Assembly (NCBI RefSeq): GCF_030412785.1
Contig: NZ_CP125295.1
Span: forward strand, 558,001-622,000
DNA: 64,000 nucleotides
From: Paraburkholderia sabiae
Lineage (GTDB): Bacteria; Pseudomonadota; Gammaproteobacteria; Burkholderiales; Burkholderiaceae
Direction: 5' to 3'
Position 1 is the first letter of the stretch. Each line of letters begins with the position of its first letter. The position numbers and the translations under genes were made by a program. The notes below the pieces were generated by a model that did not search any database, was not told the origin of the DNA, and saw nothing but the letters and a program-made list of their open reading frames with translations. Positions 19,385-39,893 of this stretch are shown piece by piece.

Positions 19385-20319
19385 TGAGTCTTTCCCTTGT
19401 TCGCGCTGCCCGCATTGCCAGCGTTGCCGGCGGCGAGCGCGTTGCCGAGCGCGTCGAGTTGCGCCAGCATCCATTGCTGGTAGTTCTTGCCGGCCGGCTG
19501 CGTCTCCGTCACGCTCATCGTCGGTACGTGCGATTGCTGCGCGAGTTTCAGCATGCGTTTGGTCAGGGCCTCGGTTGCCTGGCTGTTATAGATCAGAACG
19601 CTCACGCGCCGCTCGCGAAGGTCGCGCTCGAACGCGGCGATGTCCGACGCGCTCGCTTCCGTGTCGTTCATCGCGGCCAGCTGGAAACGCTGGTTGCGCA
19701 TGTCGAGGCCGATCGCATCCGACATGTAGCCGAACACCGGCTCCGTCGCCGTCACGCTCACGCGCGCGTACTGGCTGCGCAGCGCGGCGACCTTGTCGTC
19801 GATCGGCTTGAGCGAGCCGAGAAACTTCGCGAGGTTCGCATCATACGCCGCCTTGTGCGAAGGATCAGCCGACGCCAGCGCCGCGCTCACCGCGCGCGCG
19901 ACGGCGGGCATCGTCGCCGGGTCGTACCACAGATGCGGGTTGTCGCCGCTCTTCTTGCCGACCAGTTTCGCCGCGACGATCGTCTTGCGCTTGTCGTTCT
20001 TCGACGCGTTCAACAGCTTCGTCATCCACGGATCGTAATCGGCGCCGTTGTAGACCACAAGGCTCGCGTGCTGCAACGCGCGCGCCGTCTTCGGGCTTGC
20101 TTCGAACAGATGCGGATCCTGATCCGGATTGCTGAGAATGCTCGTCACGTCGACGCGATCGCCGCCCAGTTGCTGCACGACGTCGCCGTAGAAATTCTCC
20201 GCGGCGACGACGGGAATCTTTGCTTCCTGCGCGTGCGCGGCGTGGCCGAGCGCGAAGGCGAAAACCGTCGACGCGGCGGCGCGCGTCAGAAACTTCCACA
20301 TCGAATTGTTGTTCTTCAT
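19381..20319 (-). CDS. znuA: Zinc ABC transporter substrate-binding protein
   Basis: A 312-residue periplasmic cluster A-I metal-binding protein with an N-terminal signal (cleavage probably after AHAQ). Metal ligands can be placed in DQDPHLFEAS (His), DNPHLWYDP (His) and TEPVFGYMSD (Glu). The His/Asp-rich loop of E. coli ZnuA is absent. The C-terminal end is Gly/Asn/Ala-rich (AAGNAGNAGSANKG). Zinc rather than manganese is inferred from the neighbouring Zur-type repressor. It is 46 bp downstream of zur in the same direction. Confidence 0.87.
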   Translation of the reverse strand: MKNNNSMWKFLTRAAASTVFAFALGHAAHAQEAKIPVVAAENFYGDVVQQLGGDRVDVTSILSNPDQDPHLFEASPKTARALQHASLVVYNGADYDPWMTKLLNASKNDKRKTIVAAKLVGKKSGDNPHLWYDPATMPAVARAVSAALASADPSHKAAYDANLAKFLGSLKPIDDKVAALRSQYARVSVTATEPVFGYMSDAIGLDMRNQRFQLAAMNDTEASASDIAAFERDLRERRVSVLIYNSQATEALTKRMLKLAQQSHVPTMSVTETQPAGKNYQQWMLAQLDALGNALAAGNAGNAGSANKGKTQ

Positions 20320-20365
20320 CGGGATGACCTGTTGCTCGAGAGGTGTCGGGGTTGAAGGGAGGGCG

Positions 20366-20857
20366 TCAGGCGTGGCCGTGCTTGCAGGCGGCGCACAGTC
20401 CGCTCAGCTCGACGACCTGGTGATGCACTTCGAAACCGTGCGCGGGGGCGCTGTGCGACAGCTGCGCGGCGAGGCCGTCGCCGGGAATCTCGACGGTTTC
20501 GCCGCACGCGTCGCACATCAGGAACTGGCTCTGATGCGGCTCGCCCATCTGGCAGCACGCGAAAAACGCATTTTTCGATTCGATCCGATGCACGAAGCCA
20601 TGCTCGACGAGAAAGTCGAGCGCGCGATACACGGTGGTCGGCGGCACGCGGCCGCGCTGCGGCTCCAGCGCGGCCAGCAGATCGTATGCGCCGACGGGGC
20701 GCTCGCTCTGCGCGATCAGCGTGTAGACCTGGCGACGCAGCGTCGTCAGCGCGAGACCGCGCTCGGCGGCGAGCGCATCGGCGCGCGCGAGCTTGTGCGC
20801 GAGCCGGTCGGCGTGATCGGCGGAAACGTCGGGGTGAAGATCGGATGAGCGGGCCAT
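20366..20857 (-). CDS. zur: Fur-family zinc uptake regulator
   Basis: A 163-residue Fur-family repressor. The DNA-binding domain includes LTTLRRQVYTLIAQSERPVG and the recognition region VPPTTVYRALDFLVEHGFVH. The C-terminal metal-binding part has two cysteine pairs, CDACGE and CAACKHGHA, for structural zinc. The start at MARSSDLHP (20857) gives the usual Zur length; a longer frame to 20944 would cover the promoter. Being first in the operon, it controls zinc uptake and itself. Confidence 0.9.
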   Translation of the reverse strand: MARSSDLHPDVSADHADRLAHKLARADALAAERGLALTTLRRQVYTLIAQSERPVGAYDLLAALEPQRGRVPPTTVYRALDFLVEHGFVHRIESKNAFFACCQMGEPHQSQFLMCDACGETVEIPGDGLAAQLSHSAPAHGFEVHHQVVELSGLCAACKHGHA

Positions 20858-20893
20858 CGCACGAACTCCGGCAGCGTCGGATTGAACGAGGTC

Positions 20894-20916
20894 GCAATGA
20901 TATAACGTATCTCGAA
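20894..20916. promoter_or_regulatory. Candidate Zur box
   Basis: The 23-bp stretch beginning GCAATGATATAACGTATC resembles the proteobacterial Zur consensus: AATG, then TATAA, then TATC in the right spacing compared with the E. coli znu operator. An inverted GCAATGA/TCATTGC pair (20894-20900, 20923-20929) brackets it. It lies 37-59 bp upstream of the zur start. Confidence 0.5.
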
Positions 20917-21020
20917 AAATTGTCATTGCCCGTTGCAAAGTCATCGCCGATTCTTAAGAAGACAGCCGTAGACGAGCTTTTTCGCGCTGCCGCGCTGCAC
21001 CATCGAAATTGCGCGACGCG

Positions 21021-21076
21021 CCTTGACATGACCGGACGCGTATCCGATCATTCGATCACAACGAGAGCAATTGCTC
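21021..21076 (+). promoter_or_regulatory. Polyol regulon promoter-operator 1
   Basis: TTGACA (21023-21028), a 17-bp spacer and GATCAT (21046-21051) are followed by the perfect palindrome GAGCAATTGCTC (21065-21076). A second, degenerate site GAGCGTTAGCTC lies at 21084-21095, 19 bp further on. The operator lies downstream of -10, which fits repression. The same architecture, with most bases conserved, occurs in front of dalD (33593-33648, minus strand). Confidence 0.8.
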
Positions 21077-21156
21077 GATCAACGAGCGTTAGCTCATGGT
21101 GAATCGAAGCATCGATCGAATAACCAAACGAATAACCAAACGAACCGGAGACAGTG

Positions 21157-21939
21157 GTGACAGCCCGACTGCAAGGCAAGGTGGCGATTCTGACGGGCGC
21201 GGCGAGCGGTATCGGCGAGGCAGTGGCCCGGCGGTATCTCGAGGAGGGCGCGCGCTGCGTGCTGGTCGATGTGAAGCCGGCCGGCGACTTTGCGCATGCG
21301 CTGCGCGAAACCGACGGTGAGCGCGTGCTCACTATCAGCGCAGACGTCACGAAGCGCGAAGACATCGCGCGCATCGTCGAGCAGACGGTGCAGCGGTTCG
21401 GCCAGATCGACATTCTCTTCAACAACGCGGCGCTGTTCGACATGCGCCCGCTTCTCGACGAATCCTGGGACATCTTCGACACGCTCTTCGCGGTCAACGT
21501 GAAGGGCATGTTCTTTCTGATGCAGGCCGTCGCCCAACGCATGGTCGAGCAGGGCCACGGCGGCAAGATCATCAACATGTCGTCGCAGGCAGGCCGCCGC
21601 GGCGAGGCGCTCGTGTCGCATTACTGCGCGACCAAGGCGGCCGTGCTCAGCTATACGCAGTCGGCGGCGCTCGCACTCGCGCCGCACCGGATCAACGTGA
21701 ACGGCATCGCGCCCGGCGTCGTCGATACGCCGATGTGGGAACAGGTCGATGCCCTTTTCGCGCGTTACGAGAACCGGCCGCTCGGCGAGAAGAAGCGTCT
21801 CGTCGGTGAAGCGGTGCCGCTCGGCAGGATGGGGCTGCCGGCGGATCTGACGGGGGCGGCGCTGTTCCTCGCATCGTCCGATGCGGATTACATCACCGCG
21901 CAAACCCTGAACGTCGACGGCGGCAACTGGATGAGCTGA
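21157..21939 (+). CDS. SDR polyol dehydrogenase (sorbitol/L-iditol 2-dehydrogenase type)
   Basis: A 260-residue short-chain dehydrogenase. The NAD-binding loop is LTGAASGIGEAVARRYLEEG, NNAALF follows, and the catalytic Ser-Tyr-Lys are in NMSSQAGRRGEALVSHYCATK. It ends NVDGGNWMS like the SmoS/PolS sorbitol dehydrogenases, which oxidise D-sorbitol to D-fructose and galactitol to tagatose. Two adjacent GTG codons (21154, 21157) can start it; ACCGGAGACAG precedes them. It leads the polyol import operon, 88 bp before the binding-protein gene. Confidence 0.85.
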   Translation: MTARLQGKVAILTGAASGIGEAVARRYLEEGARCVLVDVKPAGDFAHALRETDGERVLTISADVTKREDIARIVEQTVQRFGQIDILFNNAALFDMRPLLDESWDIFDTLFAVNVKGMFFLMQAVAQRMVEQGHGGKIINMSSQAGRRGEALVSHYCATKAAVLSYTQSAALALAPHRINVNGIAPGVVDTPMWEQVDALFARYENRPLGEKKRLVGEAVPLGRMGLPADLTGAALFLASSDADYITAQTLNVDGGNWMS

Positions 21940-22027
21940 CCGTCATTCACTACGGCAACCGCTACCCGGCGCACACGCATCCGCCGATCACGTACCAACA
22001 CGAAAGTACGAATAAAGGAGACAAACG

Positions 22028-23350
22028 ATGAAGCCAACCTGCAAACCCGCGCTCAACGTATTTGGCGCCGCGGCGCTCGCCTGCGCTGCCTTCAGCGCCA
22101 ACGCGGCGACCGTGACGATCGCGACGTTGAACAATCCGGACATGATCGAGTTGAAGAAGCTGTCGCCGGCATTCGAAAAAGCGAATCCCGACATCAAGCT
22201 CAACTGGGTGATTCTCGAAGAAAACGTGCTGCGTCAGCGCGCAACGACGGACATCACGACAGGCAGCGGCCAGTTCGACGTGATGACGATCGGCGCGTAT
22301 GAAACGCCGCAGTGGGGCAAGCGCGGCTGGCTCGCGCCGCTCACGAACCTGCCCGCCGATTACGACCTGAACGACGTCGTGAAGACGGCGCGCGACGGTC
22401 TGTCGTACAACGGCTCGCTGTACGCGCTGCCGTTCTACGTCGAAAGCTCGATGACGTATTACCGCAAGGATCTGTTCGCGGCGAAGGGCCTGAAGATGCC
22501 CGACAACCCGACCTACGACCAGATCGCCCAGTTCGCCGACAAGCTCACCGACAAATCGGCGGGCACCTACGGCATCTGCCTGCGCGGCAAGGCTGGATGG
22601 GGCGAGAACATGGCGTACGTGACGACGCTCGTGAACACGTTCGGCGGCCGCTGGTTCGACGAGCAATGGCACGCGCAGCTGACCACGCCGGAATGGAAGA
22701 AGGCGGTTTCGTTCTACGTCGATCTGCTGAAGAAAGACGGCCCGCCGGGAGCCAGCTCGAACGGCTTCAACGAAAACCTCACGCTGATGTCGTCGGGCAA
22801 GTGCGCGATGTGGATCGACGCGACGGTCGCGGCCGGCATGCTTTACAACAAGCAGCAATCGCAGATTTCGGACAAGGTCGGTTTCGCGGCCGCGCCGACG
22901 CAAGCCACGCCGAACGGCTCGCACTGGCTGTGGGCGTGGGCGCTGGCGATTCCGAAGTCGTCGAAACAGGCCGACGCGGCGAAGAAGTTCATCACGTGGG
23001 CGACGTCGAAGCAGTACATCGAAATGGTCGCAAAGGATGAAGGCTGGGCGTCGGTGCCGCCGGGCACGCGTCAGTCGACGTATGCGCGCCCCGAGTACAA
23101 GCAGGCCGCGCCGTTCGCCGATTTCGTGCTGAAGGCCATCGAAACGGCTGATCCGACGCATCCGACCGCGAAGCCGGTGCCTTACACGGGTGTGCAGTTC
23201 GTCGGCATCCCTGAGTTCCAGTCGTTCGGCACGGTGGTCGGTCAGAGCATTTCGGGTGCAGTAGCAGGCCAGATGTCGGTCGACCAGGCCTTGGCAGCCG
23301 GTAACGCGACGGCGGATCGCGCTGTCAAGCAGGCCGGCTACCAGAAGTAA
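22028..23350 (+). CDS. Polyol ABC transporter substrate-binding protein (SmoE/MtlE type)
   Basis: A 440-residue periplasmic binding protein of the family-1 (maltose-like) class, with a signal peptide ending AFSANAAT. The body matches sorbitol/mannitol-binding proteins: TIATLNNPDMIELKKLSPAF at the start of the mature chain, later YALPFYVESSMTYYRKDLF and SHWLWAWALAIPKSS. It delivers a hexitol or pentitol to the two permeases encoded downstream. AAAGGAGACAAACG precedes the ATG. The stop is followed by three hairpins before the permease gene. Confidence 0.9.
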   Translation: MKPTCKPALNVFGAAALACAAFSANAATVTIATLNNPDMIELKKLSPAFEKANPDIKLNWVILEENVLRQRATTDITTGSGQFDVMTIGAYETPQWGKRGWLAPLTNLPADYDLNDVVKTARDGLSYNGSLYALPFYVESSMTYYRKDLFAAKGLKMPDNPTYDQIAQFADKLTDKSAGTYGICLRGKAGWGENMAYVTTLVNTFGGRWFDEQWHAQLTTPEWKKAVSFYVDLLKKDGPPGASSNGFNENLTLMSSGKCAMWIDATVAAGMLYNKQQSQISDKVGFAAAPTQATPNGSHWLWAWALAIPKSSKQADAAKKFITWATSKQYIEMVAKDEGWASVPPGTRQSTYARPEYKQAAPFADFVLKAIETADPTHPTAKPVPYTGVQFVGIPEFQSFGTVVGQSISGAVAGQMSVDQALAAGNATADRAVKQAGYQK

Positions 23351-23390
23351 GCGTCCAGTTATACCGACGTAACACCCGCAGTGAAATTGG

Positions 23391-23424
23391 CACGCCGTCT
23401 GCTTGACCCCACGCGGACGGCGTG
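23391..23424 (+). other. Intercistronic hairpin after the binding-protein gene
   Basis: A 9-bp perfect stem CACGCCGTC / GACGGCGTG (23391-23399 and 23416-23424) lies 40 bp after the binding-protein stop. It has no T-run, so it may protect the upstream mRNA from 3' decay rather than terminate. Confidence 0.65.
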
Positions 23425-23467
23425 TCCAAGACCCAGCCCGTAGCCTCTCAGGGAAGCAGCACACCCG

Positions 23468-23523
23468 GCCGGAACGTTGCACAACGCCGGCTGACAGTGC
23501 GAGGTAACTGCATCGTCAGCCGG
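23468..23523 (+). other. Two mutually exclusive hairpins before the permease gene
   Basis: Hairpin one pairs GCCGG-AA-CGTTG (23468-23479) with CAACG-CCGGC (23482-23491). Hairpin two pairs CCGGCTGAC (23487-23495) with GTCAGCCGG (23515-23523). Both need the CCGGC at 23487-23491, so only one can form at a time. This resembles a switch or decay barrier between the binding protein and the permeases. Confidence 0.55.
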
Positions 23524-23588
23524 ACTCCTGGCAGCACAGCGAGCCGCACGCCCCCGCGACCCGCGCACTACCGAAGAGGTGGTCCATC

Positions 23589-24527
23589 ATGCGTCAACAC
23601 TTGCGTCTACCCCTCATGCATGCCGAACCCCAAACCGAACACGAGCGCGAAGCGCGCAAGGCCGCGCATGCGCGCTGGCTCGTAACGCCGTCCGTCGGCG
23701 TTCTCGTCCTGTGGATGGCGATTCCACTCGCGATGACCATCTGGTTTTCGTTCTCGCGCTACAACCTGCTGAATCCGGATGAAAAAGGGTTCACGGGTCT
23801 CGACAATTACAAATATCTCGCCAGCGATCCGTCCTTCTTGCCGTCGATCGTCCATACGTTGCAACTGATCGTCGCGGTGCTGCTGATTACCGTGGTCGGC
23901 GGCGTGCTGCTCGCGGTGCTGTTCGACCGCAAGTTCTACGGGCAGGGCATCGCGCGATTGCTGGCCATCGCACCGTTCTTCGTGATGCCGACGGTCTCCG
24001 CGCTGATCTGGAAGAACATGATCCTGCATCCGGTCTACGGCCTAATCGCCGACGGCATGCGCGCTGTCGGGCTCGCGCCGATCGACTGGTTCGCGGTGTA
24101 TCCATTGACGTCAGTGATCATCATCGTCGCGTGGCAGTGGTTACCGTTCGCGTTCCTCATTCTCTTCACGGCGATCCAGTCGCTCGACCAGGAGCAGAAG
24201 GAAGCCGCGAAGATCGACGGCGCAGGTCCGTTCGCGATGTTCTTCTTCATCACGCTGCCGCACCTGAAACGCGCGATCGCCGTGGTCGTGATGATGGAAA
24301 CCATTTTCCTGCTGTCGATCTTCGCCGAAATCTACACGACGACGGGCGGCGGTCCGGGCAACGCGACGACCAACCTGTCGTACCTGATCTACGCGCTCGG
24401 CCTGCAACAGTTCGACGTCGGCCTCGCATCGGCAGGCGGGATTCTCGCCGTGGTGCTCGCGAATATCGTGTCGTTCTTCCTCGTGCGCATGCTCGCGAAG
24501 AACCTGAAAGGGGAGTACGAAAAATGA
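23589..24527 (+). CDS. Polyol ABC transporter permease (SmoF/MtlF type)
   Basis: A 312-residue inner-membrane permease with six hydrophobic segments. The family loop EQKEAAKIDGAGPFAMFFFI is the coupling helix that docks onto the ATPase. The N-terminal 35 residues are cytoplasmic and charged. The start has AGAGGTGG upstream. The stop overlaps the next permease start as ATGA. It forms the heterodimeric channel with that second permease. Confidence 0.9.
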   Translation: MRQHLRLPLMHAEPQTEHEREARKAAHARWLVTPSVGVLVLWMAIPLAMTIWFSFSRYNLLNPDEKGFTGLDNYKYLASDPSFLPSIVHTLQLIVAVLLITVVGGVLLAVLFDRKFYGQGIARLLAIAPFFVMPTVSALIWKNMILHPVYGLIADGMRAVGLAPIDWFAVYPLTSVIIIVAWQWLPFAFLILFTAIQSLDQEQKEAAKIDGAGPFAMFFFITLPHLKRAIAVVVMMETIFLLSIFAEIYTTTGGGPGNATTNLSYLIYALGLQQFDVGLASAGGILAVVLANIVSFFLVRMLAKNLKGEYEK

Positions 24528-25390
24528 GCCAGGTTGCCGCTACACCTGTTACGACGAACGTGTCGAAGGTCAATTCGCCGTTCGCCATCATTCGACGCAG
24601 CATTCCGGGCATTCTCGCGTGGATCATCGCGCTGCTGCTGTTCTTCCCGATCTTCTGGATGACCATTACGGCATTCAAGACGGAGCAGCAGGCCTACGCG
24701 TCGTCGTTGTTCTTCACGCCGACGCTTGAGAGCTTCCGCGAAGTGTTCGCGCGTAGCAATTACTTCGGCTTCGCGTGGAACTCGATCCTGATCTCGGTCG
24801 GCGTCACGCTGCTGTGTCTGATTCTGGCCGTGCCGTGCGCGTACGCGATGGCCTTCTTCCCGACGCGCCGCACGCAGAAAGTGCTGCTGTGGATGCTCTC
24901 GACGAAGATGATGCCGTCCGTCGGCGTGCTGGTGCCGATCTACCTGCTGTGGAAGAACAGCGGTCTGCTCGATACCGTCAGCGGTCTGGTGATCGTCTAC
25001 ACGCTGATCAATCTGCCGATTGCCGTGTGGATGTCGTTCACGTACTTCGCCGAAATTCCGCGCGACATTCTCGAAGCAGGGCGTATCGACGGCGCAGCGA
25101 CGTGGCAGGAGATCGTCTATCTGCTGATGCCGATGTCGCTGCCGGGGCTCGCATCGACGGCGCTGCTGCTCGTGATCCTGTCGTGGAACGAGGCGTTCTG
25201 GAGCATCAACCTGTCGAGTTCGAACGCCGCGCCGCTGACGGTGTTCATCGCGTCGTATTCGAGTCCTGAAGGGCTGTTCTGGGCGAAGCTGTCGGCGGCG
25301 TCGCTGCTGGCTGTCGCGCCTATCCTGATCGTCGGCTGGGTGTCGCAGAAGCAGCTGGTGCGTGGTCTTACCTTCGGGGCGGTCAAGTGA
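24524..25390 (+). CDS. Polyol ABC transporter permease (SmoG/MtlG type)
   Basis: A 288-residue permease, second half of the transporter channel. Coupling-helix motif: EIPRDILEAGRIDGAATWQE. Six hydrophobic segments are visible, starting ILAWIIALLLFFPIFWMT. It starts inside the previous stop (ATGA, 24524) and ends inside the next start (GTGA, 25387), so three consecutive genes are translationally coupled. Confidence 0.92.
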   Translation: MSQVAATPVTTNVSKVNSPFAIIRRSIPGILAWIIALLLFFPIFWMTITAFKTEQQAYASSLFFTPTLESFREVFARSNYFGFAWNSILISVGVTLLCLILAVPCAYAMAFFPTRRTQKVLLWMLSTKMMPSVGVLVPIYLLWKNSGLLDTVSGLVIVYTLINLPIAVWMSFTYFAEIPRDILEAGRIDGAATWQEIVYLLMPMSLPGLASTALLLVILSWNEAFWSINLSSSNAAPLTVFIASYSSPEGLFWAKLSAASLLAVAPILIVGWVSQKQLVRGLTFGAVK

Positions 25391-26079
25391 CGGAGACCCG
25401 ACACGCAGACCGCGCGTTGATCTGCGACTGCGACGGCGTGCTGATCGACAGCGAAGCCATCGCCGCGAAGGTCATCGTGCAGGAGCTGGAAACGCGCTGG
25501 CCGGGCCTCGACATCGCGCCCGTCGTGATGCCGCTGCTCGGACTGCGCACCGAGCGCGTGCTGCAAGGCGCGGCCTCGGCGCTCGGCATGACGCTCACGC
25601 CCGGCGATATCGACGCGATCCGCATGACGGTCGGCGCGTCGGCGATCAAGGCGCCGATGGTCTCAGGCATCGACGCAGCGCTCGCGCAGATCTCGCTAAA
25701 GAAGGCCTGCGCGAGCAACAGCGATCGCGGCTACGTCGAAGCGGTGCTCGAACGTACGGGCCTCGTGAAGTTCTTCGGCAACCGCCTGTTTTGCGCGGAC
25801 AGTGTCGAAGCGCCGAAGCCCGCGCCCGATGTTTATCTCGCCGCGGCGCGCGCGATCGGTGTGAATCCGGAAGCGTGTCTCGTGATCGAGGACAGCGTGG
25901 CGGGCGTGACGGCGGCGACATCGGCGGGCATGACGGTGTATGGCTTTATCGGCGGCGGGCACGCGAGCGACGAACAGGTCGACACGCTGCGGCAGCTCGG
26001 CGCGCAACATGTATTCGACGACATGAAGCTTTTGCCGGAACTGGTCGCGCAATGGCTGCATCGCGTGACCGTGACATAG
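25387..26079 (+). CDS. HAD-family hydrolase (beta-phosphoglucomutase-like) of the polyol operon
   Basis: A 230-residue HAD-IA phosphatase or phosphomutase. Motif I is CDCDGVLIDSEAIAAK, motif II is in KKACASNSDRGYVEA, and motifs III/IV are KPAPDVYLAAARAIG and CLVIEDSVAGVTAA. It starts at GTG 25387, overlapping the permease stop. Its place among transport genes suggests it removes or moves phosphate on a polyol-derived sugar phosphate, but the substrate is unknown. Confidence 0.85.
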   Translation: MTETRHADRALICDCDGVLIDSEAIAAKVIVQELETRWPGLDIAPVVMPLLGLRTERVLQGAASALGMTLTPGDIDAIRMTVGASAIKAPMVSGIDAALAQISLKKACASNSDRGYVEAVLERTGLVKFFGNRLFCADSVEAPKPAPDVYLAAARAIGVNPEACLVIEDSVAGVTAATSAGMTVYGFIGGGHASDEQVDTLRQLGAQHVFDDMKLLPELVAQWLHRVTVT

Positions 26080-26142
26080 GCGTGGCTTGAAGCCGCGTTC
26101 GGCAAATCGATTCAACGTAGCAGGGAAATACGGAGACACATC

Positions 26143-27252
<1,110 letters not shown>

Positions 27253-27272
27253 TTCGCTGAACTGCATCGATA

Positions 27273-27311
27273 AAAAGCGCCGTTGCATTCGCTGCAACGG
27301 CGCTTTTCTTT
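27273..27311 (+). terminator. Terminator of the polyol import operon
   Basis: A 15-bp perfect stem AAAAGCGCCGTTGCA / TGCAACGGCGCTTTT (27273-27287 and 27293-27307) with loop TTCGC and a T-rich tail. It separates the transport operon from the TPR gene. Confidence 0.93.
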
Positions 27312-27504
27312 ATTGCGGACTCGGACTTGTCCGATAGTTCAGCGCCTTATCCCATATCAAAATTGTGCATCGTCTGACAGTGCGTGCCTGAGCCGTTCTT
27401 CAGGTGGCGCTGCCGGTTCTTCGTCCATTCCGTCCGGCGCACGTCTTCCGCGCGATTGCTCGTCAGATCGCGCGAAACCAAACGTGCGGCCGACTCAAGG
27501 CGCC

Positions 27505-29286
27505 ATGCACAACGCTTCTCCTCTTACTCACGAACACGCCGTTCCCGCATCGGTTGCAGAGCGCGCGCTCGCGTTCCATCGCGCGGGCGAACTCGATCGC
27601 GCCGAACACGCGTATCGCGCGCTGCTCGACACCCAACCCGACGACGCCAACACGCGCTACATGCTTGGCGTGCTGTATCTGCAGCGGCAGGACGTCGAGC
27701 GCGCGATCGAATCGTTCGATGCATCGCTCGCATTGCAACCCGATCACGCCGACTGTCTGAACGATCGCGGCATCGCGGCGCTTTCGCGCGGCGACAATGA
27801 AGATGCAGCGAACTTCTTTCGCAGAGCCGTCGAATGCGCGCCGCACGATGCGCTCGCGCATTGCAATCTCGGCAAGGCATTGCGTCTTCTCTCGAAGCCT
27901 GAAGATGCGCTCGCCAGCTTTCAGAAGGCGCTCGCGCTCGATGGGCATTTCTTCGAAGCGGCGCTCGGCAGCGCGGACGCGCTCGAAATCCTCGGGCGTC
28001 CGCATGAAGCCGTGGCCGCCTACGAACGCGCCGCGCGCCATGCACCCGACGATATGCGCGTGTTGCTCGGTCTTGGCCTGACGCTGAACGCGGCGCGTCG
28101 TCACACCGAAGCCGTGACGTATTTCGAACGCGCGTTGCAGCAGGAGCCGGAAAACGCGCAGGCATTGTTCGGCATCGCCTTCGCAGTCGATGCCCAGATG
28201 AATTTCGACGATGCCGTGATCCGCTACAAGCGCGCGCTCGAAGTCCTGCCGAATTCGGCGACGCTGCATAACAACATCGCGTTCACGCTGACCTGCATGT
28301 CACGCTACGACGAAGCCGACGAACATCTTCGCCGCGCCATCGAACTCGCGCCGGATGTATCGAATGCGTACAAGCTGCTTGGTATGTCCGAACTGCGGCG
28401 CGGCAATTTTCGCAAAGGCTGGACGTACTACGAGCATCGCAAGACGACGGCGAGCGGCCAGCGCGAGTATCCGCCACTCGATTTGCCCGAATGGAAGGGC
28501 GAGCCGCTCGACGGCAAGCGCTTTCTGCTGGCGCGCGAACAGGGCGCGGGCGACCAGTTGCAGTTCGTTCGATACGCCGGCGTGCTGCACGATCTGGGCG
28601 CGACCGTCGACGTGTGGACGAGCGGCGAACTCGCGCCGCTATTCGCGCGCATGCGCGGCGTAAATCGTGTGTTGACGGAAGCGCCGACGGGCGGCTACGA
28701 CTATTACTCCCGGATGATGAGCGTGCCCACGTCGCTCGCCGACGACGCGATTCCGCATGCCGTGCCCTATCTGTCGGTGGATGAGTCACAGGTCGACGCG
28801 TGGCGCGGGTTGATCGGGAAGGCGGCGGGTTCGAGCAGGAAAGTCGGGCTGGTGTGGGCGGGCAATCCGCACCATTACCTCGACGTCTATCGTTCGGCGC
28901 CTCTGGCGGCACTCGAACCGCTCGCGTCGGTGCATGGCATCGCGTGGTTCGCGTTGCAGAAGGGCGCGGGAGAGGCGCAACTGGATGGCGTTGCGCATCG
29001 CTGGCCGATCTGTGCGCTTGGTCAGTTGCTCGACAGCTTCCACGCGACGGCGGCCGTGATCGAGTCTCTGGACCTCGTCATTACCGTCGATACATCCGTC
29101 GCGCATCTGGCGGGCGCGCTCGGCAAGCCCGTGTGGGTGCTGCTACCGAAGCAGGCCGACTGGCGCTGGACGATGTCGGGCGACACCACGCCGTGGTATC
29201 CGACTGCGCGCCTGTTCCGGCAGCAGGTATTGGGCGACTGGACGCCCGTCGTCGAATCGGTGCGCCGCGCGCTCGAAGCGCTATAA
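27505..29286 (+). CDS. Tetratricopeptide-repeat protein with glycosyltransferase-like C-domain
   Basis: A 593-residue protein. About the first 330 residues are tandem 34-residue TPR units (for example ARYMLGVLYL-type and AHCNLGKALRLLSKPEDALA). The C-terminal 250 residues have the pattern of a GT9/GT41-like glycosyltransferase, ending with the nucleotide-site-like DLVITVDTSVAHLAGALGKP. Such fusions occur in Burkholderia and may modify proteins or glycans; the acceptor is unknown. ATG 27505 is chosen because upstream frame runs through the terminator. The stop overlaps the convergent regulator gene by 6 bp. It has no obvious link to polyol use. Confidence 0.8.
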   Translation: MHNASPLTHEHAVPASVAERALAFHRAGELDRAEHAYRALLDTQPDDANTRYMLGVLYLQRQDVERAIESFDASLALQPDHADCLNDRGIAALSRGDNEDAANFFRRAVECAPHDALAHCNLGKALRLLSKPEDALASFQKALALDGHFFEAALGSADALEILGRPHEAVAAYERAARHAPDDMRVLLGLGLTLNAARRHTEAVTYFERALQQEPENAQALFGIAFAVDAQMNFDDAVIRYKRALEVLPNSATLHNNIAFTLTCMSRYDEADEHLRRAIELAPDVSNAYKLLGMSELRRGNFRKGWTYYEHRKTTASGQREYPPLDLPEWKGEPLDGKRFLLAREQGAGDQLQFVRYAGVLHDLGATVDVWTSGELAPLFARMRGVNRVLTEAPTGGYDYYSRMMSVPTSLADDAIPHAVPYLSVDESQVDAWRGLIGKAAGSSRKVGLVWAGNPHHYLDVYRSAPLAALEPLASVHGIAWFALQKGAGEAQLDGVAHRWPICALGQLLDSFHATAAVIESLDLVITVDTSVAHLAGALGKPVWVLLPKQADWRWTMSGDTTPWYPTARLFRQQVLGDWTPVVESVRRALEAL

Positions 29287-30252
29287 GCGCGACGCCGGTC
29301 CGCCTTCGTGATTCAGCGCGGCGCGCGCGCACAACTCGTCGGTCACGAGCCCGGACAGCCAGCCGCCCTTCAACGCGGCAATCACCGCATTGCGCTTGCG
29401 TTCGCCGCCCGCGAAACCGATCACGGGACGCTTCGGCGGCGAATCGAGATTCAGGCTCGTCACCCGGCGGCCAGTCGGCGATTCGACGCGTGCGCCGCTC
29501 GCGTCGATAGGCAGGCCGAGCAGTTCGGCCACCGCGCCGAGCGACACCAGTTCTTCCACTTCATCCGACGTGATGAAGCCGTCTTCATGCAGCGGGCAAT
29601 GCAGCCCGATATTGCCAATCCCCACGAACGCGACATCCGCTTCGCCCGACAGCGATTCGACGATCCGGTACAAACGGTGATTGCACCATTGCGCGCGCTC
29701 CGCTTCGTTATCGGCGATCAGCGGCGCGGGCAGCAGGAAATGCTTGCCGCCCGTCTTCTCGGAGATGTGCAGCGCGACGTCGTAGCGATTCGACGAGCCG
29801 TCCTGCGCAATCGCGCCGACCATCGACACGAGCCGGTGTTGCGGCCGCTCCAGTTGCCCGACCTGATCGACGACGGCCTTCAGCGTCCGGCCGCTGCTGA
29901 CGGCGACGACCATCGGCCGTTCTTCGCCGAGATAGCGCTCCATCACCTGCGCGCCCGCGACCGCGAGCTTGCGGTCGATCTCTTCGGGCTTGTCGTTGTC
30001 GACGGGAACGACTTCGCACATCGACAGGCCGTAGCGCTTCGACAGCTGATCCGCCAGCGACAGACAGTCCGCGAGCCGATGATCGACGCGCACACGGATC
30101 AAATTCTTCTCGACGGCGAACGCGACGAGCCGCTGCGCGACGGGCCGCGAGACCTGCAGTTTTTCCGCGATCTCGTTTTGCGTGTTGCCCGCGACGTAGT
30201 AGAGCCAGGCGGCGCGGGTCGCGAGATCGAGCTTTTCAGTGGACTTGGGCAC
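29281..30252 (-). CDS. SorC-family transcriptional regulator of polyol genes
   Basis: A 323-residue regulator. The N-terminal helix-turn-helix reads TQNEIAEKLQVSRPVAQRLV. The rest is the SorC sugar-phosphate-binding domain (VVAVSSGRTLKAVVDQV, later VAFVGIGNIG). It starts with GTG at 30252 and has only a weak ribosome site. It is the last gene of the dalD-xylB-sorC operon, so it would be under its own control if it binds the operator in front of dalD. I infer that it represses both polyol operons and is released by a phosphorylated sugar, as in other SorC systems. Confidence 0.88.
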   Translation of the reverse strand: MPKSTEKLDLATRAAWLYYVAGNTQNEIAEKLQVSRPVAQRLVAFAVEKNLIRVRVDHRLADCLSLADQLSKRYGLSMCEVVPVDNDKPEEIDRKLAVAGAQVMERYLGEERPMVVAVSSGRTLKAVVDQVGQLERPQHRLVSMVGAIAQDGSSNRYDVALHISEKTGGKHFLLPAPLIADNEAERAQWCNHRLYRIVESLSGEADVAFVGIGNIGLHCPLHEDGFITSDEVEELVSLGAVAELLGLPIDASGARVESPTGRRVTSLNLDSPPKRPVIGFAGGERKRNAVIAALKGGWLSGLVTDELCARAALNHEGGPASRL

Positions 30253-30374
30253 GATGTTGGCGGTCAGGAATGCGCCGAAGCGCGTAACACCAGGAAGCCC
30301 GCGTCGGGCGTTCTGGTGCGCTGCATGCTGTGACGTTCATCGCCGTCTGCTGCACGTTCAATGCGCGCGTTGCT

Positions 30375-31859
30375 TTACGCCGCGTTCGCTTCGCGCGCGG
30401 GCGCGAACATCGGCTTCACATGCCGGTACAGCGCACGATAACTCGCGAGCCGCTCGCGCAGCACGGCATGTCGCTGCGCGTTCGGCGTGAATTCGATTTC
30501 GACGGGCGGCTTGGTCAGCACCTTCGCGGGATCGCCGCCTGCCGCGAGCCAGCCCAGACGCGCCGCGCCGAGCGCCGCGCCCGTTTCGCCGCCGCCATGC
30601 TTGCGCGTGGTCGTGTTCAGCGAATCGGCGAGCAGTTGCGCCCAGTAGTTGCTGCGCGCACCGCCGCCCAGCAGCGACAGCGCATTTACTTCGGTGCCCG
30701 CCGCGCGCAACGCGTCGAGGCCGTCGGTCAGCGCGAGCGTCACGCCTTCGAGTACCGCATAGCCGAGCAACGCGCGATCGGTGGCGTGCGTCATGCCGAA
30801 GAACACGCCCTGCGAATACGGATCGTTGTGCGGCGTGCGCTCGCCCGACAGATACGGCAGGAACAGCGGCGCGGTGACGAGCGCTTCGTCGGAGAGTTTT
30901 TCGACTTCGGCGAGCAGCGTCGGCTCGTCGGTCGATGTGAGCTTGCACACCCAGCGCAGACAGCTCGCCGCCGACAACACCACGCTCATCTGATGCCAGC
31001 GATCGGGGATCGCGTGACAGAACGCGTGCACAGCCGACTCGGGATTCGGCCGGAAGCTGTTGCCGATCACGCACAGCACGCCCGACGTGCCGAGCGACAC
31101 GAAGCCGTCGCCCGGTTGCGTCGCGCCGATGCCGATTGCGCTCGTCGCGTTGTCGCCGCCGCCCGCCGCCACGACGACGGGTTCGCGCAAGCCGAGTTCT
31201 TCCGCCAGCTCGCGCCGCAGCACGCCCGACGACGCGCTGCCTTCCGCGAGACGCGGCATGTGCGAGCGGTTCAGATCGCAAGCCGCGAGCAGCGTGTCGG
31301 ACCAGTCGCGCTGCGCGACATCGAGCCAGAGCGTGCCGGCGGCGTCGGACGGATCGGAGACCTTGTCGCCCGTCAGTTGCAGGCGCAAATAATCTTTCGG
31401 CAGCAGCACACACGCGGTCTGCCGGAAAATCTCCGGCTCATGACGCGCGACCCACAGCAGCTTCGGCGCGGTGAAGCCGGGCATCGCCAGATTGCCGGCG
31501 ATCTTGTGCAGGTCCGGCGCGCGTCGATACAGCTCGTCGCATTCCTCGACGGCGCGCATGTCGTTCCACAGGATCGCGGGACGCAGCACGCGATCTTCGC
31601 TGTCGAGCAGCACCGCGCCGTGCATCTGTCCCGACAGCCCGATGCCGCGAATCTGCGCGAACTGTTCGGGAAAGCGGCCGCGCAGCGCGAACAGCGCTTC
31701 GCGTGTGCCTTGCCACCAGTCGGACGGATTCTGCTCCGACCAGCGCTGATGCGGCCGCGAAACGGTGAATGGAGAACCTGCCGTGCCGATCACGCGTCCA
31801 TCGGAGGCGAGCAGCAGAACTTTCACTTCGGACGTGCCGAGGTCGATGCCGAGATACAT
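30375..31859 (-). CDS. xylB: Xylulokinase
   Basis: A 494-residue FGGY kinase that phosphorylates D-xylulose to D-xylulose 5-phosphate. The N-terminal loop is YLGIDLGTSEVKVLLLAS, the substrate loop is GIGLSGQMHGAVLLDS, the catalytic Asp is in AAGGGDNATSAIGIG, and the ATP site is LSLLGGGARSNYWAQL. Length and motifs match XylB throughout. It follows dalD in the same operon, so D-arabinitol oxidised by DalD feeds directly into it. Confidence 0.93.
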   Translation of the reverse strand: MYLGIDLGTSEVKVLLLASDGRVIGTAGSPFTVSRPHQRWSEQNPSDWWQGTREALFALRGRFPEQFAQIRGIGLSGQMHGAVLLDSEDRVLRPAILWNDMRAVEECDELYRRAPDLHKIAGNLAMPGFTAPKLLWVARHEPEIFRQTACVLLPKDYLRLQLTGDKVSDPSDAAGTLWLDVAQRDWSDTLLAACDLNRSHMPRLAEGSASSGVLRRELAEELGLREPVVVAAGGGDNATSAIGIGATQPGDGFVSLGTSGVLCVIGNSFRPNPESAVHAFCHAIPDRWHQMSVVLSAASCLRWVCKLTSTDEPTLLAEVEKLSDEALVTAPLFLPYLSGERTPHNDPYSQGVFFGMTHATDRALLGYAVLEGVTLALTDGLDALRAAGTEVNALSLLGGGARSNYWAQLLADSLNTTTRKHGGGETGAALGAARLGWLAAGGDPAKVLTKPPVEIEFTPNAQRHAVLRERLASYRALYRHVKPMFAPAREANAA

Positions 31860-31974
31860 GGGCGCGAAACCTTCGTCGGTAGGAGATGCGCTACTTTAGC
31901 CGCATGCTGCGTGCGATGCCATGCGCAAAAGACCTGGCGGATGGCATGGTTCGAACGCGGCGATCAATGAGAGC

Positions 31975-32005
31975 GGCCGCGCGTGAACGGAGTCCATGCG
32001 CGGCC
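31975..32005. other. Hairpin between dalD and xylB
   Basis: An 11-bp stem with one G-T type mismatch (GGCCGCGCGTG and CATGCGCGGCC) around a 9-nt loop lies in the 171-bp gap between the two genes. It has no T-run, so it may be an mRNA-stability element. Confidence 0.55.
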
Positions 32006-32030
32006 ATGTCGCTACGAGTGTGAAGCTGCG

Positions 32031-33437
32031 TTATTTGCCCCGCTTGGCAAGCCACGCATCGACGCGGCCGAGCGCCGACCGCACGACGTTTTCCAGCGAA
32101 GCCATGCCCGCCATGCTGCCCCACAGCAGCCGGTCGGCGCAGAACGCCTGCACGGGATCGGCGGCCTTGAAGAAGCCGCGCGCGACGCCTTCGTCCATCA
32201 CGCCGTCCTGATACGTGTACGGCAGCTTGCCCTGTTGCCAGCGATCGAGAAAGCGCAGGAACAGCGCGGGCAGCATCGCCGTCGCGTTCGGCTCGGCCTT
32301 GCGCGCGAAGCATTCGGATAGCGTCGGCGCGATGAAGCCGGGAATCTTCGAGAAGCCATCGGCGGCGACACGCTGATTCGTGTCCTGGATATACGGATTG
32401 CCGAAGCGTTCGAGCACGACGTCGCGATACTTCGCGAGATCGAGCGGACTGGGCGTGAGGCACGGAATCACGTCCTGCGTCACGTAGTCGTGCGCAAACT
32501 GGCGGATCTCGGCGTCGAGCGTGCCTTCGTGGATATACGACAGGCCGACGAGCGTGCCCGCCCATGCGATGCAGCTATGCGTCGCGTTGAGAATGCGGAT
32601 CTTCGCTTCTTCGTACGGGAGCACCGACTCGACGAGTTCCGCGCCGACCTGTTCCCACGCGGGACGTCCGGCGATGAAGTGATCCTCGATCACCCACTGG
32701 ATAAACGATTCGCCCATCACCGGGCAGGCGTCGTCGAAACCGGTCGCGGCCTTCACGCGCTCGCGCACGTCGGGCGTCGGACGCGGCGTAATGCGATCGA
32801 CCATCGAGTTGGGACATGCGGTGTTCGCATCGAACCACTGACGCAGCGCAGTCGCGCCGCGTCGTTCGAGAAACTGCGTCATGCCTGCCTTGAACCGGTC
32901 GCCGTTGCTGCGCAGGTTGTCGCAGGTCTGCAGCGTGACGGGACCGGCATTGCGCTGCATGCGCGCTTCGAGAATCGCAGCGAGCGCGCCGTAAATCGTG
33001 GTGCGCGCGCCGTTCAGATCCGCGGCGAGATCGGGATTAGCCGTATCGAGCTTGTCGTGCTCGTCGAGGTAATAGCCGCCTTCCGTGACCGTGAACGCGA
33101 TGATCTTGCACGCGGGGTCGGCGCCCGCTTCGACGAGCGCATCCAGATTCGCCGACCACGGCACGACGCGTTCGATCGAGCGGATCGTTTCGTACGCTCG
33201 CTCGCCTTGCGGCGTGACGGTTTCGAGCGTGTAGACGCCGTTCTGCGCAGCGAGCGCATCGGCGACGGCATTCATGTCGCTGCGGATATTGCCGACGGTC
33301 AGCGACCAGTGCGGATCGTTGGGCTTGCGCGCTTCGTTGAGCCGGTGCAGATACCAGGCCTGGTGCGCGCGATGGAATGAGCCTGCGCCGATATGCAGGA
33401 TCACCTGCCTGCTTGCGCCGCTTTCGCCGCTGTTCAT
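32031..33437 (-). CDS. dalD: D-arabinitol 4-dehydrogenase (mannitol dehydrogenase family)
   Basis: A 468-residue polyol-specific long-chain dehydrogenase that oxidises D-arabinitol to D-xylulose (relatives use D-mannitol). It begins [20 protein letters not shown], the family NAD-binding start. It contains [32 protein letters not shown] and the catalytic Lys region [19 protein letters not shown]. The overall pattern fits DalD better than mannitol 2-dehydrogenase; a mixed substrate range is likely. It is the first gene of its operon, behind promoter-operator 2. Confidence 0.88.
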
Positions 33438-33592
33438 ATGCGTCTCCTGTGTCGGCCGGAGTTCGTGCGTCGAGCGTCTTGCTCCGGTCCCATGCTGGTT
33501 TTGAAAATCTTGTGCGCACGGTCTTTCGCGTGCGTTCCTTCGGATAAGTCTAGAAGCTGTCTCGACGTTGTGAACCCAACGTTTGAATTGAA

Positions 33593-33648
33593 GAGCATTT
33601 GCTCTTGACGTGAACTAATGATCGTATCCGCTCGATTGAATGTCAAGG
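33593..33648 (-). promoter_or_regulatory. Polyol regulon promoter-operator 2, in front of dalD
   Basis: Read on the minus strand: CCTTGACAT, 15 bp, CGATCATT, then GAGCAAATGCTC. The spacing of every element equals promoter-operator 1 at 21021-21076, and 26 of the last 32 positions are identical. The -35 is TTGACA, the -10 is GATCAT with a 17-bp spacer, and the palindrome lies just downstream. Confidence 0.8.
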
Positions 33649-34030: not shown

Positions 34031-35053
34031 GTGCAACCCGATCTCGAACTGGTCACCGTACGCCGCGACGAATCGTTCAAGGCGTGGTATCACGGCTTCC
34101 CGTACCGCACGGTGCGCTGGCACTTTCATCCGGAATTCGAAATCCATCTGATCGTCGCGACGACGGGCAAGATGTTCGTCGGCGATTACATCGGTCCGTT
34201 CGCGCCGGGCAATCTCGTGCTGATGGGCCCGAACCTGCCGCACAACTGGGTCAGCGAAGTGCCCGAAGGCGTGACGATCGAACAGCGCAATCTCGTCGTG
34301 CAGTTCCCGCAGGACTTCGTCGCGCATTGCACGGAGAGCTTCCCCGAGTGGCGCACGCTCGAAGCGCTGCTCGCCGATTCGCGGCGCGGCGTGTCGTTCG
34401 GTCCGCAAACCAGCGCGAAAATCCAGCCGCTCTTCATGGAATTGCTCGACGCGCGCGGCCTGCGCCGCATCGTGCTGTTTCTGTCGATGATGGAGATCCT
34501 GCTGAACGCGACCGACCGCGAACTGCTCGCGAGCCCCGCGTATCAGATCGACCCGACGAGCTTCGCGTCGACGCGCATCAATCACGTGCTGTCGTATATC
34601 GGCAAGAACCTGTCGTCCGAGTTGCGCGAATCGGAACTCGCGCAACTCGCGGGCCAGAGCGTGAGCGCGTTCTCGCGCTACTTCCGCCGGCACACAGGTT
34701 TGACGTTCGTGCAGTACGTGAACCGGATGCGCATCAACCTCGCGTGCCAGCTGCTGATGGACGATGACCTGAGCGTCACCGACATCTGCTACAAGGTCGG
34801 CTTCAACAATCTGTCGAACTTCAACCGGCAGTTTCTCACCGCGAAAGGCATGGCCCCGTCGAAGTTTCGCCGCTTCCAGCAACTGAACGACGCGAGCCGC
34901 GTCGCTTCCGAAGCGGCGGCGGCGCTCGGCAAGGGCATCGCCAACGCGCCCTCGATCGTGCCGGCCGCGCAAACCCAGGTTCATGCGCACGGCCAGCCGC
35001 GCGCCGCGCCAGCGGCGTATCCGCCTTCCGGTCCGCCGATCCTGACGACCTAG
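34031..35053 (+). CDS. AraC-family transcriptional regulator with cupin N-domain
   Basis: A 340-residue regulator. The cupin-like ligand domain contains VRWHFHPEFEIHLIVATTGK and GPNLPHNWVSEVPEG. The two C-terminal helix-turn-helix motifs are SELAQLAGQSVSAFSRYFRR and VTDICYKVGFNNLSNFNRQF. The last 50 residues are Ala/Pro-rich. It starts at GTG 34031 with CAGGAGACCGAC upstream. It precedes and shares direction with the ribose-type ABC operon, which it probably activates in response to a polyol or sugar. Confidence 0.9.
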   Translation: MQPDLELVTVRRDESFKAWYHGFPYRTVRWHFHPEFEIHLIVATTGKMFVGDYIGPFAPGNLVLMGPNLPHNWVSEVPEGVTIEQRNLVVQFPQDFVAHCTESFPEWRTLEALLADSRRGVSFGPQTSAKIQPLFMELLDARGLRRIVLFLSMMEILLNATDRELLASPAYQIDPTSFASTRINHVLSYIGKNLSSELRESELAQLAGQSVSAFSRYFRRHTGLTFVQYVNRMRINLACQLLMDDDLSVTDICYKVGFNNLSNFNRQFLTAKGMAPSKFRRFQQLNDASRVASEAAAALGKGIANAPSIVPAAQTQVHAHGQPRAAPAAYPPSGPPILTT

Positions 35054-35088
35054 GGCACCTCAGCAATCCCGACGTTTCACCTGCTCAT

Positions 35089-35107
35089 CGCGCTGCCAGA
35101 CAGCGCG
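35089..35107 (+). other. Short hairpin between AraC gene and binding-protein gene
   Basis: A 7-bp perfect stem CGCGCTG / CAGCGCG with a five-base loop. No T-run follows, so it is at most a weak barrier within the 89-bp gap before the binding-protein gene. Confidence 0.45.
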
Positions 35108-35142
35108 AGGGAAGCACTCATCCTCAAAAACGGAGACAAACC

Positions 35143-36096
35143 ATGACGCACAGCCATTCATCGCATCAGTCACGCACCTTGCGCGTTCGCGCAACGCTGG
35201 CCTTCGCCGCCGTGATGCTCGCCGCGCCGCTGTTCGCGCCCGCCACCGCGAACGCCGCGCCGCTGAAGATCGGCATGACGTTTCAGGAGCTGAACAATCC
35301 GTACTTCGTGACGATGCAAAAGGCGCTCAACGATGCCGCCGCATCGATCGGCGCGACCGTCGTCGTCACCGACGCGCATCACGACGTGAGCAAGCAGGTC
35401 AGCGACGTCGAAGACATGCTGCAAAAGAAGATCGACATCCTGCTCGTGAACCCAACGGATTCGACGGGCATCCAGTCGGCCGTGACGTCGGCGAAGAAGG
35501 CGGGCGCCGTGGTCGTCGCCGTCGATGCAAACGCGAACGGTCCCGTCGATTCGTTCGTCGGCTCGAAGAATTTCGACGCGGGCCAGATGTCGTGCGAATA
35601 CCTCGCGAAAGCGATCGGCGGAAGCGGCGAAGTGGCGATTCTCGACGGCATTCCCGTCGTGCCGATTCTCGAACGCGTGCGCGGCTGCAAGGCGGCACTC
35701 GCGAAGTTCCCGAACGTAAAAGTGGTCGATACGCAGAACGGCAAGCAGGAACGTGCGACGGCATTGTCCGTCACCGAGAACATGATCCAGGCGCATCCGA
35801 ACCTGAAGGGCATCTTCAGCGTGAACGACGGCGGCTCGATGGGTGCGTTGTCCGCGATCGAATCGTCGGGCAAGGACATCAAGCTGACGAGCGTCGACGG
35901 CGCGCCGGAAGCGATCACCGCGATCCAGAAGCCGAATTCGAAGTTCATCGAAACGTCCGCGCAATTCCCGCGCGACCAGATTCGCCTCGCGATCGGCGTG
36001 GCGCTCGCGAAGAAGTGGGGCGCCAATGTGCCGAAGGCGATTCCCGTCGACGTGAAGCTCGTCGACAAGGACAACGCGAAGGGCTTCAGCTGGTAA
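35143..36096 (+). CDS. Ribose-type ABC transporter substrate-binding protein
   Basis: A 317-residue periplasmic-binding protein of the LacI-like (RbsB) class, with a signal peptide ending ATANAAP. Typical features are KIGMTFQELNNPYFVTMQKA at the mature start, then DILLVNPTDSTGIQSAV and GIFSVNDGGSMGALSAI. It captures a monosaccharide or sugar alcohol for the transporter below. CGGAGACAAACC precedes the ATG. The stop is followed by a 12-bp hairpin. Confidence 0.9.
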   Translation: MTHSHSSHQSRTLRVRATLAFAAVMLAAPLFAPATANAAPLKIGMTFQELNNPYFVTMQKALNDAAASIGATVVVTDAHHDVSKQVSDVEDMLQKKIDILLVNPTDSTGIQSAVTSAKKAGAVVVAVDANANGPVDSFVGSKNFDAGQMSCEYLAKAIGGSGEVAILDGIPVVPILERVRGCKAALAKFPNVKVVDTQNGKQERATALSVTENMIQAHPNLKGIFSVNDGGSMGALSAIESSGKDIKLTSVDGAPEAITAIQKPNSKFIETSAQFPRDQIRLAIGVALAKKWGANVPKAIPVDVKLVDKDNAKGFSW

Positions 36097-36112
36097 GCAG
36101 GGCGTTGACGAT

Positions 36113-36148
36113 GCAGCGGCGTTTTCGATTTCGGTTAAACGCCGTTGC
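36113..36148 (+). other. Intercistronic hairpin after the second binding-protein gene
   Basis: GCAGCGGCGTTT (36113-36124) pairs with AAACGCCGTTGC (36137-36148), 11 of 12 positions. It occupies the gap between the binding-protein and ATPase genes and has no T tail, matching the position of the hairpin in the first ABC operon. Confidence 0.65.
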
Positions 36149-36165
36149 GTGAACAGGAAAACGCG

Positions 36166-38701: not shown

Positions 38702-38745
38702 ATTCTCCTCTCCTCTGTTCTCCACTTTTTAAGCAGGGCAATGCA

Positions 38746-39825: not shown

Positions 39826-39893
39826 CCGGATAGTTCGCCCGTCATTCGAAAAATACACAGTGCGCGTCGTGAAGACGCGCACACGGAGACTTT

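Follow-up and report, generated by a model that had tools for sequence, protein, structure and literature searches.

The stretch of DNA considered here, a window of 64,000 nt from the 9.9 Mb, four-contig genome of Paraburkholderia sabiae, carries two polyol gene groups whose promoters, P1 and P2, are built in nearly the same way. P1 lies upstream of an operon for a short-chain dehydrogenase/reductase (SDR), a substrate-binding protein (SBP), two permeases, a HAD phosphatase and a transport ATPase, and P2 upstream of dalD, xylB and a regulator gene of the SorC type (Table 1). In all likelihood the two are operators of a single polyol regulon under the control of this putative SorC/DeoR-subfamily repressor, whose gene ends the dalD group; since it is encoded at the end of the group driven from P2, SorC probably controls its own gene as well. 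The original prediction, made on the same DNA, had taken a single palindrome in each promoter as the operator and SorC as its repressor. SorC is indeed the best-supported owner, from co-occurrence and from conserved contact arginines, and the palindrome, O2, is real, but the operator appears to be an array of sites phased at 19 bp, O1-O2 in both promoters with a further O3 in P1, of which O1 had been missed. The predicted half-site is GANC, in which the third base is nearly always A, G or T, and two such half-sites facing each other across 4 bp make up one site.

In both promoters the sequence reads TTGACA-N17-GATCAT, and it is this spacing of 17 bp which places the -10 element inside O1. In other words, the conserved CGATCATT is part of an operator-like 12-mer, O1 (GATCATTCGATC in P1), which holds the -10 hexamer and has the same outline as the palindrome O2 (GANC-N4-GNTC), being centred exactly 19 bp upstream of it in each case. 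The degenerate second site that had been noted 19 bp after the palindrome at P1 corresponds to O3. Transcription from P1 would start at about 21058, such that O2 would span roughly +7 to +18 and O3 roughly +26 to +37. The likeness of P1 to P2 is as originally claimed, with equal spacing throughout and, without gaps, 40 of 56 bases identical (26 of the last 32), as against 30 of 56 for the next best 56-mer of the window compared with P1. Two GANC-N4-GNTC sites at 19 bp with a full score of 12/12 occur at three places in the window (O1-O2 and O2-O3 of P1, and O1-O2 of P2) and nowhere in 60 random windows matched to its average dinucleotide composition. Single 12-mers with up to two mismatches occur in the window at near-chance numbers (21 matches against a shuffle mean of 13.3, with 4 of 100 shuffles giving as many), and were dropped as evidence, being too weak alone. 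In the genome as a whole the exact GAGCAWWTGCTC is present at four places, namely P1, P2 and two positions inside open reading frames (ORFs; L003 and L004). A scan with the two-site pattern at up to three mismatches returns P1 and P2 at no mismatch and two other places at three, so that P1 and P2 are the only good matches and no wider regulon is seen in this genome. The reading frames around L004, on contig C3, presumably encode a NodU-type carbamoyltransferase, a methyltransferase and a sulfotransferase, and we take it that C3 may be a symbiosis plasmid.

Across the genus the arrangement is strongly conserved. SorC is present in 57 of 58 genus genomes, and 56 loci of about 20 kb (one shorter) were fetched around it, 55 from the genus and one from G064, with G004 excluded, as its SorC is close to the end of a contig. 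With the window included, upstream regions were cut for 50 P1 and 57 P2 promoters; P1 was not obtainable in seven loci (L056, L057, L068, L075 and L088-L090), where the gene is missing, partial or outside the stretch. The palindrome is conserved in orthologous promoters, as a refutation test set beforehand with the earlier proposal required, and the whole unit O1-N7-O2 is kept without gaps in 50 of 50 P1 and 56 of 57 P2 regions, the exception being L090, from another family. The -35 element of P1 is TTGACA in all 50 genus regions, and that of P2 is TTGACT in 46 and TTGACA in 10 of the 56. The key positions of O1 are intact (6/6) in 44 P1 regions, with 5/6 in the other 6, and intact in 53 P2 regions, with 5/6 in 3; those of O2 are intact in all 50 P1 regions and in 55 of 56 P2 regions. 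O3, at 5/6 or better, is present in 49 of 50 P1 regions and in none of the 56 P2 regions. Read toward the centre of each site, every half has G at position 1 and C at position 4 in 49-50 of 50 (P1) or 56 of 56 (P2) regions, position 2 is A in most (lowest in the left half of O3, 34 of 50), and position 3 holds A, G or T in all cases but one, some of the halves having a fixed base there.

The spacer between -35 and -10 had been described as not conserved, which is correct between P1 and P2 but not within each promoter across species. In P1 (21029-21045) the bases TATCC precede O1 in 44 of 50 regions, and in P2 (33624-33640) TTCG or TTCA directly follows the -35 element in 55 of 56 and TAC precedes O1 in 55 of 56. 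These conserved blocks are specific to each promoter, those of P1 differing from those of P2, and therefore more than the contact bases is held, contrary to the suggestion that selection acts on the contact bases only. In this regard, it is improbable, in our estimation, that the likeness of P1 to P2 is mainly one of promoter duplication or plain promoter conservation, with O1 as just the -10 region and O2 alone as the operator. O1 does include the -10 element, and in more distant relatives there is a single operon with a single promoter of this kind, such that P1 and P2 may stem from its split; the right half of O1, however, lies outside the -10 element, and all 50 P1 and all 56 P2 regions agree in the G and the C of this half and in the A that follows. 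O1 and O2 moreover stay in 19-bp phase in different families and on plasmids of alpha- and gammaproteobacteria, their bases changing, and P1 and P2 each keep the array despite their diverged spacers.

The distribution of the operator largely follows that of the regulator. Whole-genome scans at up to one mismatch, covering 98 genomes (58 of the genus and 40 of other families), find the operator block in all 57 SorC-bearing genus genomes, with two sites each (G056 adds a third, one-mismatch match). The block is absent, at the same stringency, from the sole SorC-less genus genome and from all 40 other-family genomes, including G064, which has a SorC at 60%. Among 299 genomes of the family, with SorC called at an E threshold of 1e-80 and the SorC and operator rows paired by hand, SorC is found in 138 and the operator pattern in 129; 127 genomes have both, 11 SorC alone, 2 the operator alone and 159 neither. 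The operator is absent from seven SorC-less genomes of the mostly SorC-bearing genera g1, g50, g52 and g65 (G034, G178, G258, G308, G242, G310 and G219), as it is from the SorC-less G114 (g58), and a reversed-pattern control gives zero matches in both genome scans. It is highly improbable that another regulator is the main owner of the sites, and the AraC-type gene (34031-35053, divergent from dalD) and the Fur/Zur-type gene (20369-20944, divergent from P1), each of which adjoins one promoter in the window, are rejected in this role because the operator persists where their homologues are absent. At 150 bits, an AraC homologue is lacking in 23 of the 56 genus loci with a retained dalD operator, each of which reaches 3.3 kb or more beyond dalD on the upstream side, and in 36 of 36 distant loci (some not reaching far upstream of dalD); a Zur-type homologue is lacking in 31 of the 50 loci with a retained P1 operator. 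Where it is present, the AraC-type protein may act on dalD as an additional activator.

Six of the 299 genomes have three operator matches, five of them in genus g65 (G121, G153, G181, G197 and G212), the sixth being G016. The third match stands just upstream of another SDR gene (~242 aa; L292-L297, at ~1501-1554), 31-33% identical to the SDR of the window by tblastn, which in G016 is followed by a xylulokinase-like gene (65%); the ORFs at the third site were read in L292, L293 and L296. The third sites carry one mismatch in five of the six, and that of G016 is of a different, GAAC-rich type. Possibly, the third block marks a further member of the regulon or the site of a paralogous SorC. In the window genome no third block of this kind is found by the two-site scan at up to three mismatches.

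The regulator itself has the features expected of the subfamily. Its C-terminus matches the effector domain PF04198 (181.6 bits against a cut-off of 27), which suggests release of the protein by a sugar or phosphosugar. Residues 4-56 match the DNA-binding domain of DeoR (7bhy, 1.1e-7), the helix-turn-helix (HTH) being of the homeodomain-like kind of 50-60 residues and not a winged HTH of ~100 residues, and near full-length matches are found to LsrR (4go1, 4e-27), DeoR (8r7y) and SorC (2w48). The gene sits with a polyol transporter, polyol dehydrogenases and a xylulokinase-type kinase, which is the context of SmoC/DalR-type regulators. According to the accessible portion of PMC11229326, SorC-family repressors bind two half-operators as dimers of dimers, the DNA-contacting side chains are highly conserved across the subfamily, and the effectors of DeoR and CggR are phosphosugars; in the same portion the DeoR half-site is given as TTGAACA, and the base of OL18 contacted by R39 of DeoR is G4, with which GAAC begins. 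The half-site GANC fits this GAAC. Arginines R36 and R41 of the window SorC, a numbering which rests on a 5-residue offset of a 318-residue chain, align with the DeoR contact arginines R34 and R39 and are invariant in nine aligned orthologues.

Beyond the genus, the spacing of the array recurs and its bases drift. Each of the 36 loci read from other genera and families has a dalD homologue within the stretch that holds the SorC orthologue, and therefore the regulator and the polyol genes travel together. A promoter of the form TTGAC(A/T)-N17-O1-N7-O2 scores at least 14/18 in 30 of the 36. Of the remaining six, L240 and L255 belong to genomes with one pattern site each, L238 was left unplaced, and the last three are weighed below. 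In the four loci of genus g64 that were read, the geometry is kept and the bases differ. In 12 distant loci (SorC at or below ~66% identity) a spacing of 19 bp is the best, with a mean two-site score of 9.67/12 as compared with 7.58-8.50 for the other 19 spacings tried between 12 and 31. Outside the nearest genera of the window there is a single operon, (SDR)-SBP-permeases-HAD-ATPase-dalD-xylB, with sorC divergent, convergent or at its end; in the window's genus and its nearest genera this operon is split in two. O3 (at least 5/6) is found in 13 of 13 P1 promoters of other split-operon loci and in none of the 10 scoring single-operon promoters. A single clean split on the SorC tree was considered and set aside, as the one- or two-operon label needs three changes, with some forks open, and the one-operon label of L246 probably rests on an unrelated ATPase hit.

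SorC homologues of 36-45% identity are also carried by alpha- and gammaproteobacterial plasmids (40 of 358 records listed). Of these 40, 16 loci (38-45% identity) were picked by hand and fetched, of which 13 have a usable upstream region, giving 15 regions, four of them upstream of an inner dalD; L269 (Catenovulum), L276 and L279 have none, and L268 and L273 were read only upstream of the inner dalD. Of all spacings from 8 to 40, TGCYC pairs are found at exactly 19 bp only, in 10 of the 15 regions, the hosts being Chelatococcus, Qingshengfaniella, Sinorhizobium meliloti (pSymB), Paracoccus (two), Skermanella rosea, Rhizobium, Pannonibacter, Shinella and, upstream of a plasmid dalD, Klebsiella. 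The nine alphaproteobacterial cases have TTGAC and one more base 16-18 bp upstream of O1; TTGAC is absent from the stretch printed for Klebsiella. In a tenth alphaproteobacterial first-gene promoter, that of Skermanella mucosa (L270, 5940-6237), CGCTC and TGCTC stand at 19 bp, and a higher-scoring pair at 18 bp lies further upstream. The TGCYC result is descriptive for the first loci, because the test was chosen after they had been seen; the eight loci fetched later yielded 6 usable regions, of which 5 were hits.

Paired sites are what is seen in the DNA, and from them we infer a tetramer on a two-half operator. A SorC tetramer, as a dimer of dimers, would bind O1 and O2 together, covering the -10 element and the transcription start, and would thereby block RNA polymerase. 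In P1, O3 would allow a second pairing, O2-O3, and perhaps tighter control. Release of the repressor would be brought about by the polyol or by a phosphorylated product such as xylulose 5-phosphate, the phosphosugar and the free polyol being about equally probable as effector. On balance we lean towards a wider reading, in which the exact 19-bp pair with its upstream site on the -10 element would be the operator rule of SmoC/DalR-type SorC proteins in alpha-, beta- and gammaproteobacteria, the bases drifting; the split of the ancestral operon in one branch of the Burkholderiales would have copied the array to both halves, the transporter promoter would have gained an in-phase third site that allows two placements of the tetramer, and the g65 regulon would have acquired another dehydrogenase gene, one that carries its own array.

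Several observations weigh against the reading of the array as a SorC operator. Eleven genomes have SorC and no strict operator, namely G112, G132 and G147 of g56 (64-65% SorC), seven g64 genomes (55-56%) and G270, whose SorC is partial with stops. Conversely, G297 and G356 (g50; 3.9 Mb each) have one operator each and no SorC at E 1e-80, which is perhaps a recent loss of the repressor in reduced genomes. The counts are not independent, the species being related. Among the distant loci, L239 and L254 (g56) keep O1 and have a weak O2 and an 18-bp spacer from -35 to O1, one longer than usual, and in L252 the 19-bp pair upstream of the SBP gene overlaps the -35 element from upstream and does not lie on the -10, a placement closer to that of Bacillus DeoR. 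The 12 loci used for the spacing comparison omit L238 and include four near-identical g64 loci. Regulator candidates searched beside the operons comprise SorC, AraC and the Zur-type protein. Finally, because O1 overlaps the -10 element, its conservation may in part be that of the promoter.

The features are collected in Table 1. The intergenic gaps in the dalD group are 171 bp (dalD-xylB) and 122 bp (xylB-sorC), which leave room for other promoters, and cotranscription of the three genes is accordingly presumed. Between the two operons lies a gene for a TPR-repeat protein (27505-29286), with homologues in 7 of the 56 fetched loci (L035-L041). Divergent from dalD, the AraC-type gene is followed, up to 41438, by a further apparent sugar/polyol cluster (34031-41438 in all), by appearance a sugar ABC transporter, a zinc alcohol dehydrogenase and a second FGGY kinase. 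Divergent from P1, positions 17659-20944 hold what we take to be a zinc-uptake cluster, comprising a metal ABC permease, an ATPase, a metal-binding protein and the Fur/Zur-type regulator.

Table 1. Promoter-operator elements and genes of the two polyol groups (positions in the window).
Feature	Position	Strand	Basis or remark
P1 promoter-operator	21021-21076	+	upstream of SDR-SBP-permease-permease-HAD-ATPase operon
P1 -35 hexamer TTGACA	21023..21028	+	sequence
P1 O1, GATCATTCGATC, includes -10-like GATCAT (21046-21051)	21046..21057	+	sequence
P1 O2, GAGCAATTGCTC, centre 19 bp after O1	21065..21076	+	sequence
P1 O3, GAGCGTTAGCTC, centre 19 bp after O2	21084..21095	+	P1 only
Whole P1 operon	21154..27252	+	ORFs
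SDR, sorbitol/L-iditol 2-dehydrogenase	21154-21939	+	NF005472, 469 bits vs cut-off 338
SBP	22028-23350	+	ORF and family match
Permease 1	23589-24527	+	ORF and family match
Permease 2	24533-25390	+	ORF and family match
HAD phosphatase	25387-26079	+	ORF and family match
MalK/UgpC-type ATPase	26143-27252	+	ORF and family match
SorC/DeoR-type regulator, 323 aa, proposed repressor of P1 and P2	29281..30252	-	PF04198
xylB, xylulokinase	30375..31859	-	TIGR01312, 567 bits vs cut-off 380
dalD, D-arabinitol 4-dehydrogenase	32031..33437	-	NF043014, 777.7 bits vs cut-off 600
P2 promoter-operator	33593-33648	-	upstream of dalD-xylB-sorC
P2 O2, GAGCAAATGCTC, centre 19 bp after O1	33593..33604	-	sequence
P2 O1, GATCATTAGTTC, includes -10-like GATCAT (33618-33623)	33612..33623	-	sequence
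P2 -35 hexamer TTGACA	33641..33646	-	sequence

The overall picture is of a strongly conserved, probable operator array of a known repressor family, ordinary in kind, in which the constancy of the 19-bp spacing across classes is the notable feature. Nothing is overturned, as the regulator family and its general function were already known. What is gained is a predicted operator for polyol regulons whose regulators are annotated only as 'sugar-binding transcriptional regulator', such that their targets become predictable from sequence; moreover, the occurrence of the 19-bp spacing in alpha-, beta- and gammaproteobacteria suggests the placement that a SorC tetramer must take on promoter DNA, and P1 and P2 are natural, probably polyol-inducible promoters. 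No description of this operator was found in the open-licence literature, RegPrecise itself not having been searched.

Among known systems, DalR of Klebsiella (D-arabinitol) is a SorC-family regulator of dalD and a kinase. No DalR operator was found in the open-licence literature; in L265, a dalD locus on a Klebsiella plasmid with a SorC homologue next to it, a 19-bp pair is present, as here. The smo locus of S. meliloti is alike in content, with the SmoEFGK transporter and sorbitol and mannitol dehydrogenases beside a DeoR-type (EryD-like) regulator, SmoC, which was found to be a negative regulator by mutant and gfp fusion, its loss derepressing the smo operon, and no operator for the locus appears in the accessible text of that report (PMC10433430); the S. 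meliloti DNA compared here is the related pSymB operon (L267), not chromosomal smoC. EryD of Brucella and Ochrobactrum, as far as the available part of PMC10190533 describes it, likewise represses a polyol operon, as a tetramer that acts at the promoter, with erythritol itself, the free polyol, reported as inducer, but its eryO is a 29-bp AT-rich element between -35 and -10, and by eye no GANC pair at 19 bp is seen in eryO as printed there. Another comparable system is DeoR of Bacillus subtilis, which in the accessible portion of PMC11229326 is a tetrameric repressor of the same HTH class with the same contact arginines, its GAAC fits GANC, and its operator of two half-operators, one a good palindrome and one degenerate, resembles the array described here. 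The DeoR operator (dra-nupC-pdp) lies at -60 to -21, with TTCAA repeats 22 bp apart in the printed sequence, whereas here the sites are 19 bp apart, O1 holds the -10 element and O2 lies downstream of it. CggR of B. subtilis (gapA), in the same source, also has two palindromes bridged by a tetramer, with CGGGAC repeats 20 bp apart in print, but belongs to the winged-HTH subfamily, recognises another half-site and has its operator at +32 to +77. In the published sequences, by our count, the paired sites of DeoR are 22 bp apart and those of CggR 20 bp, as against 19 bp for the array of the polyol regulon.

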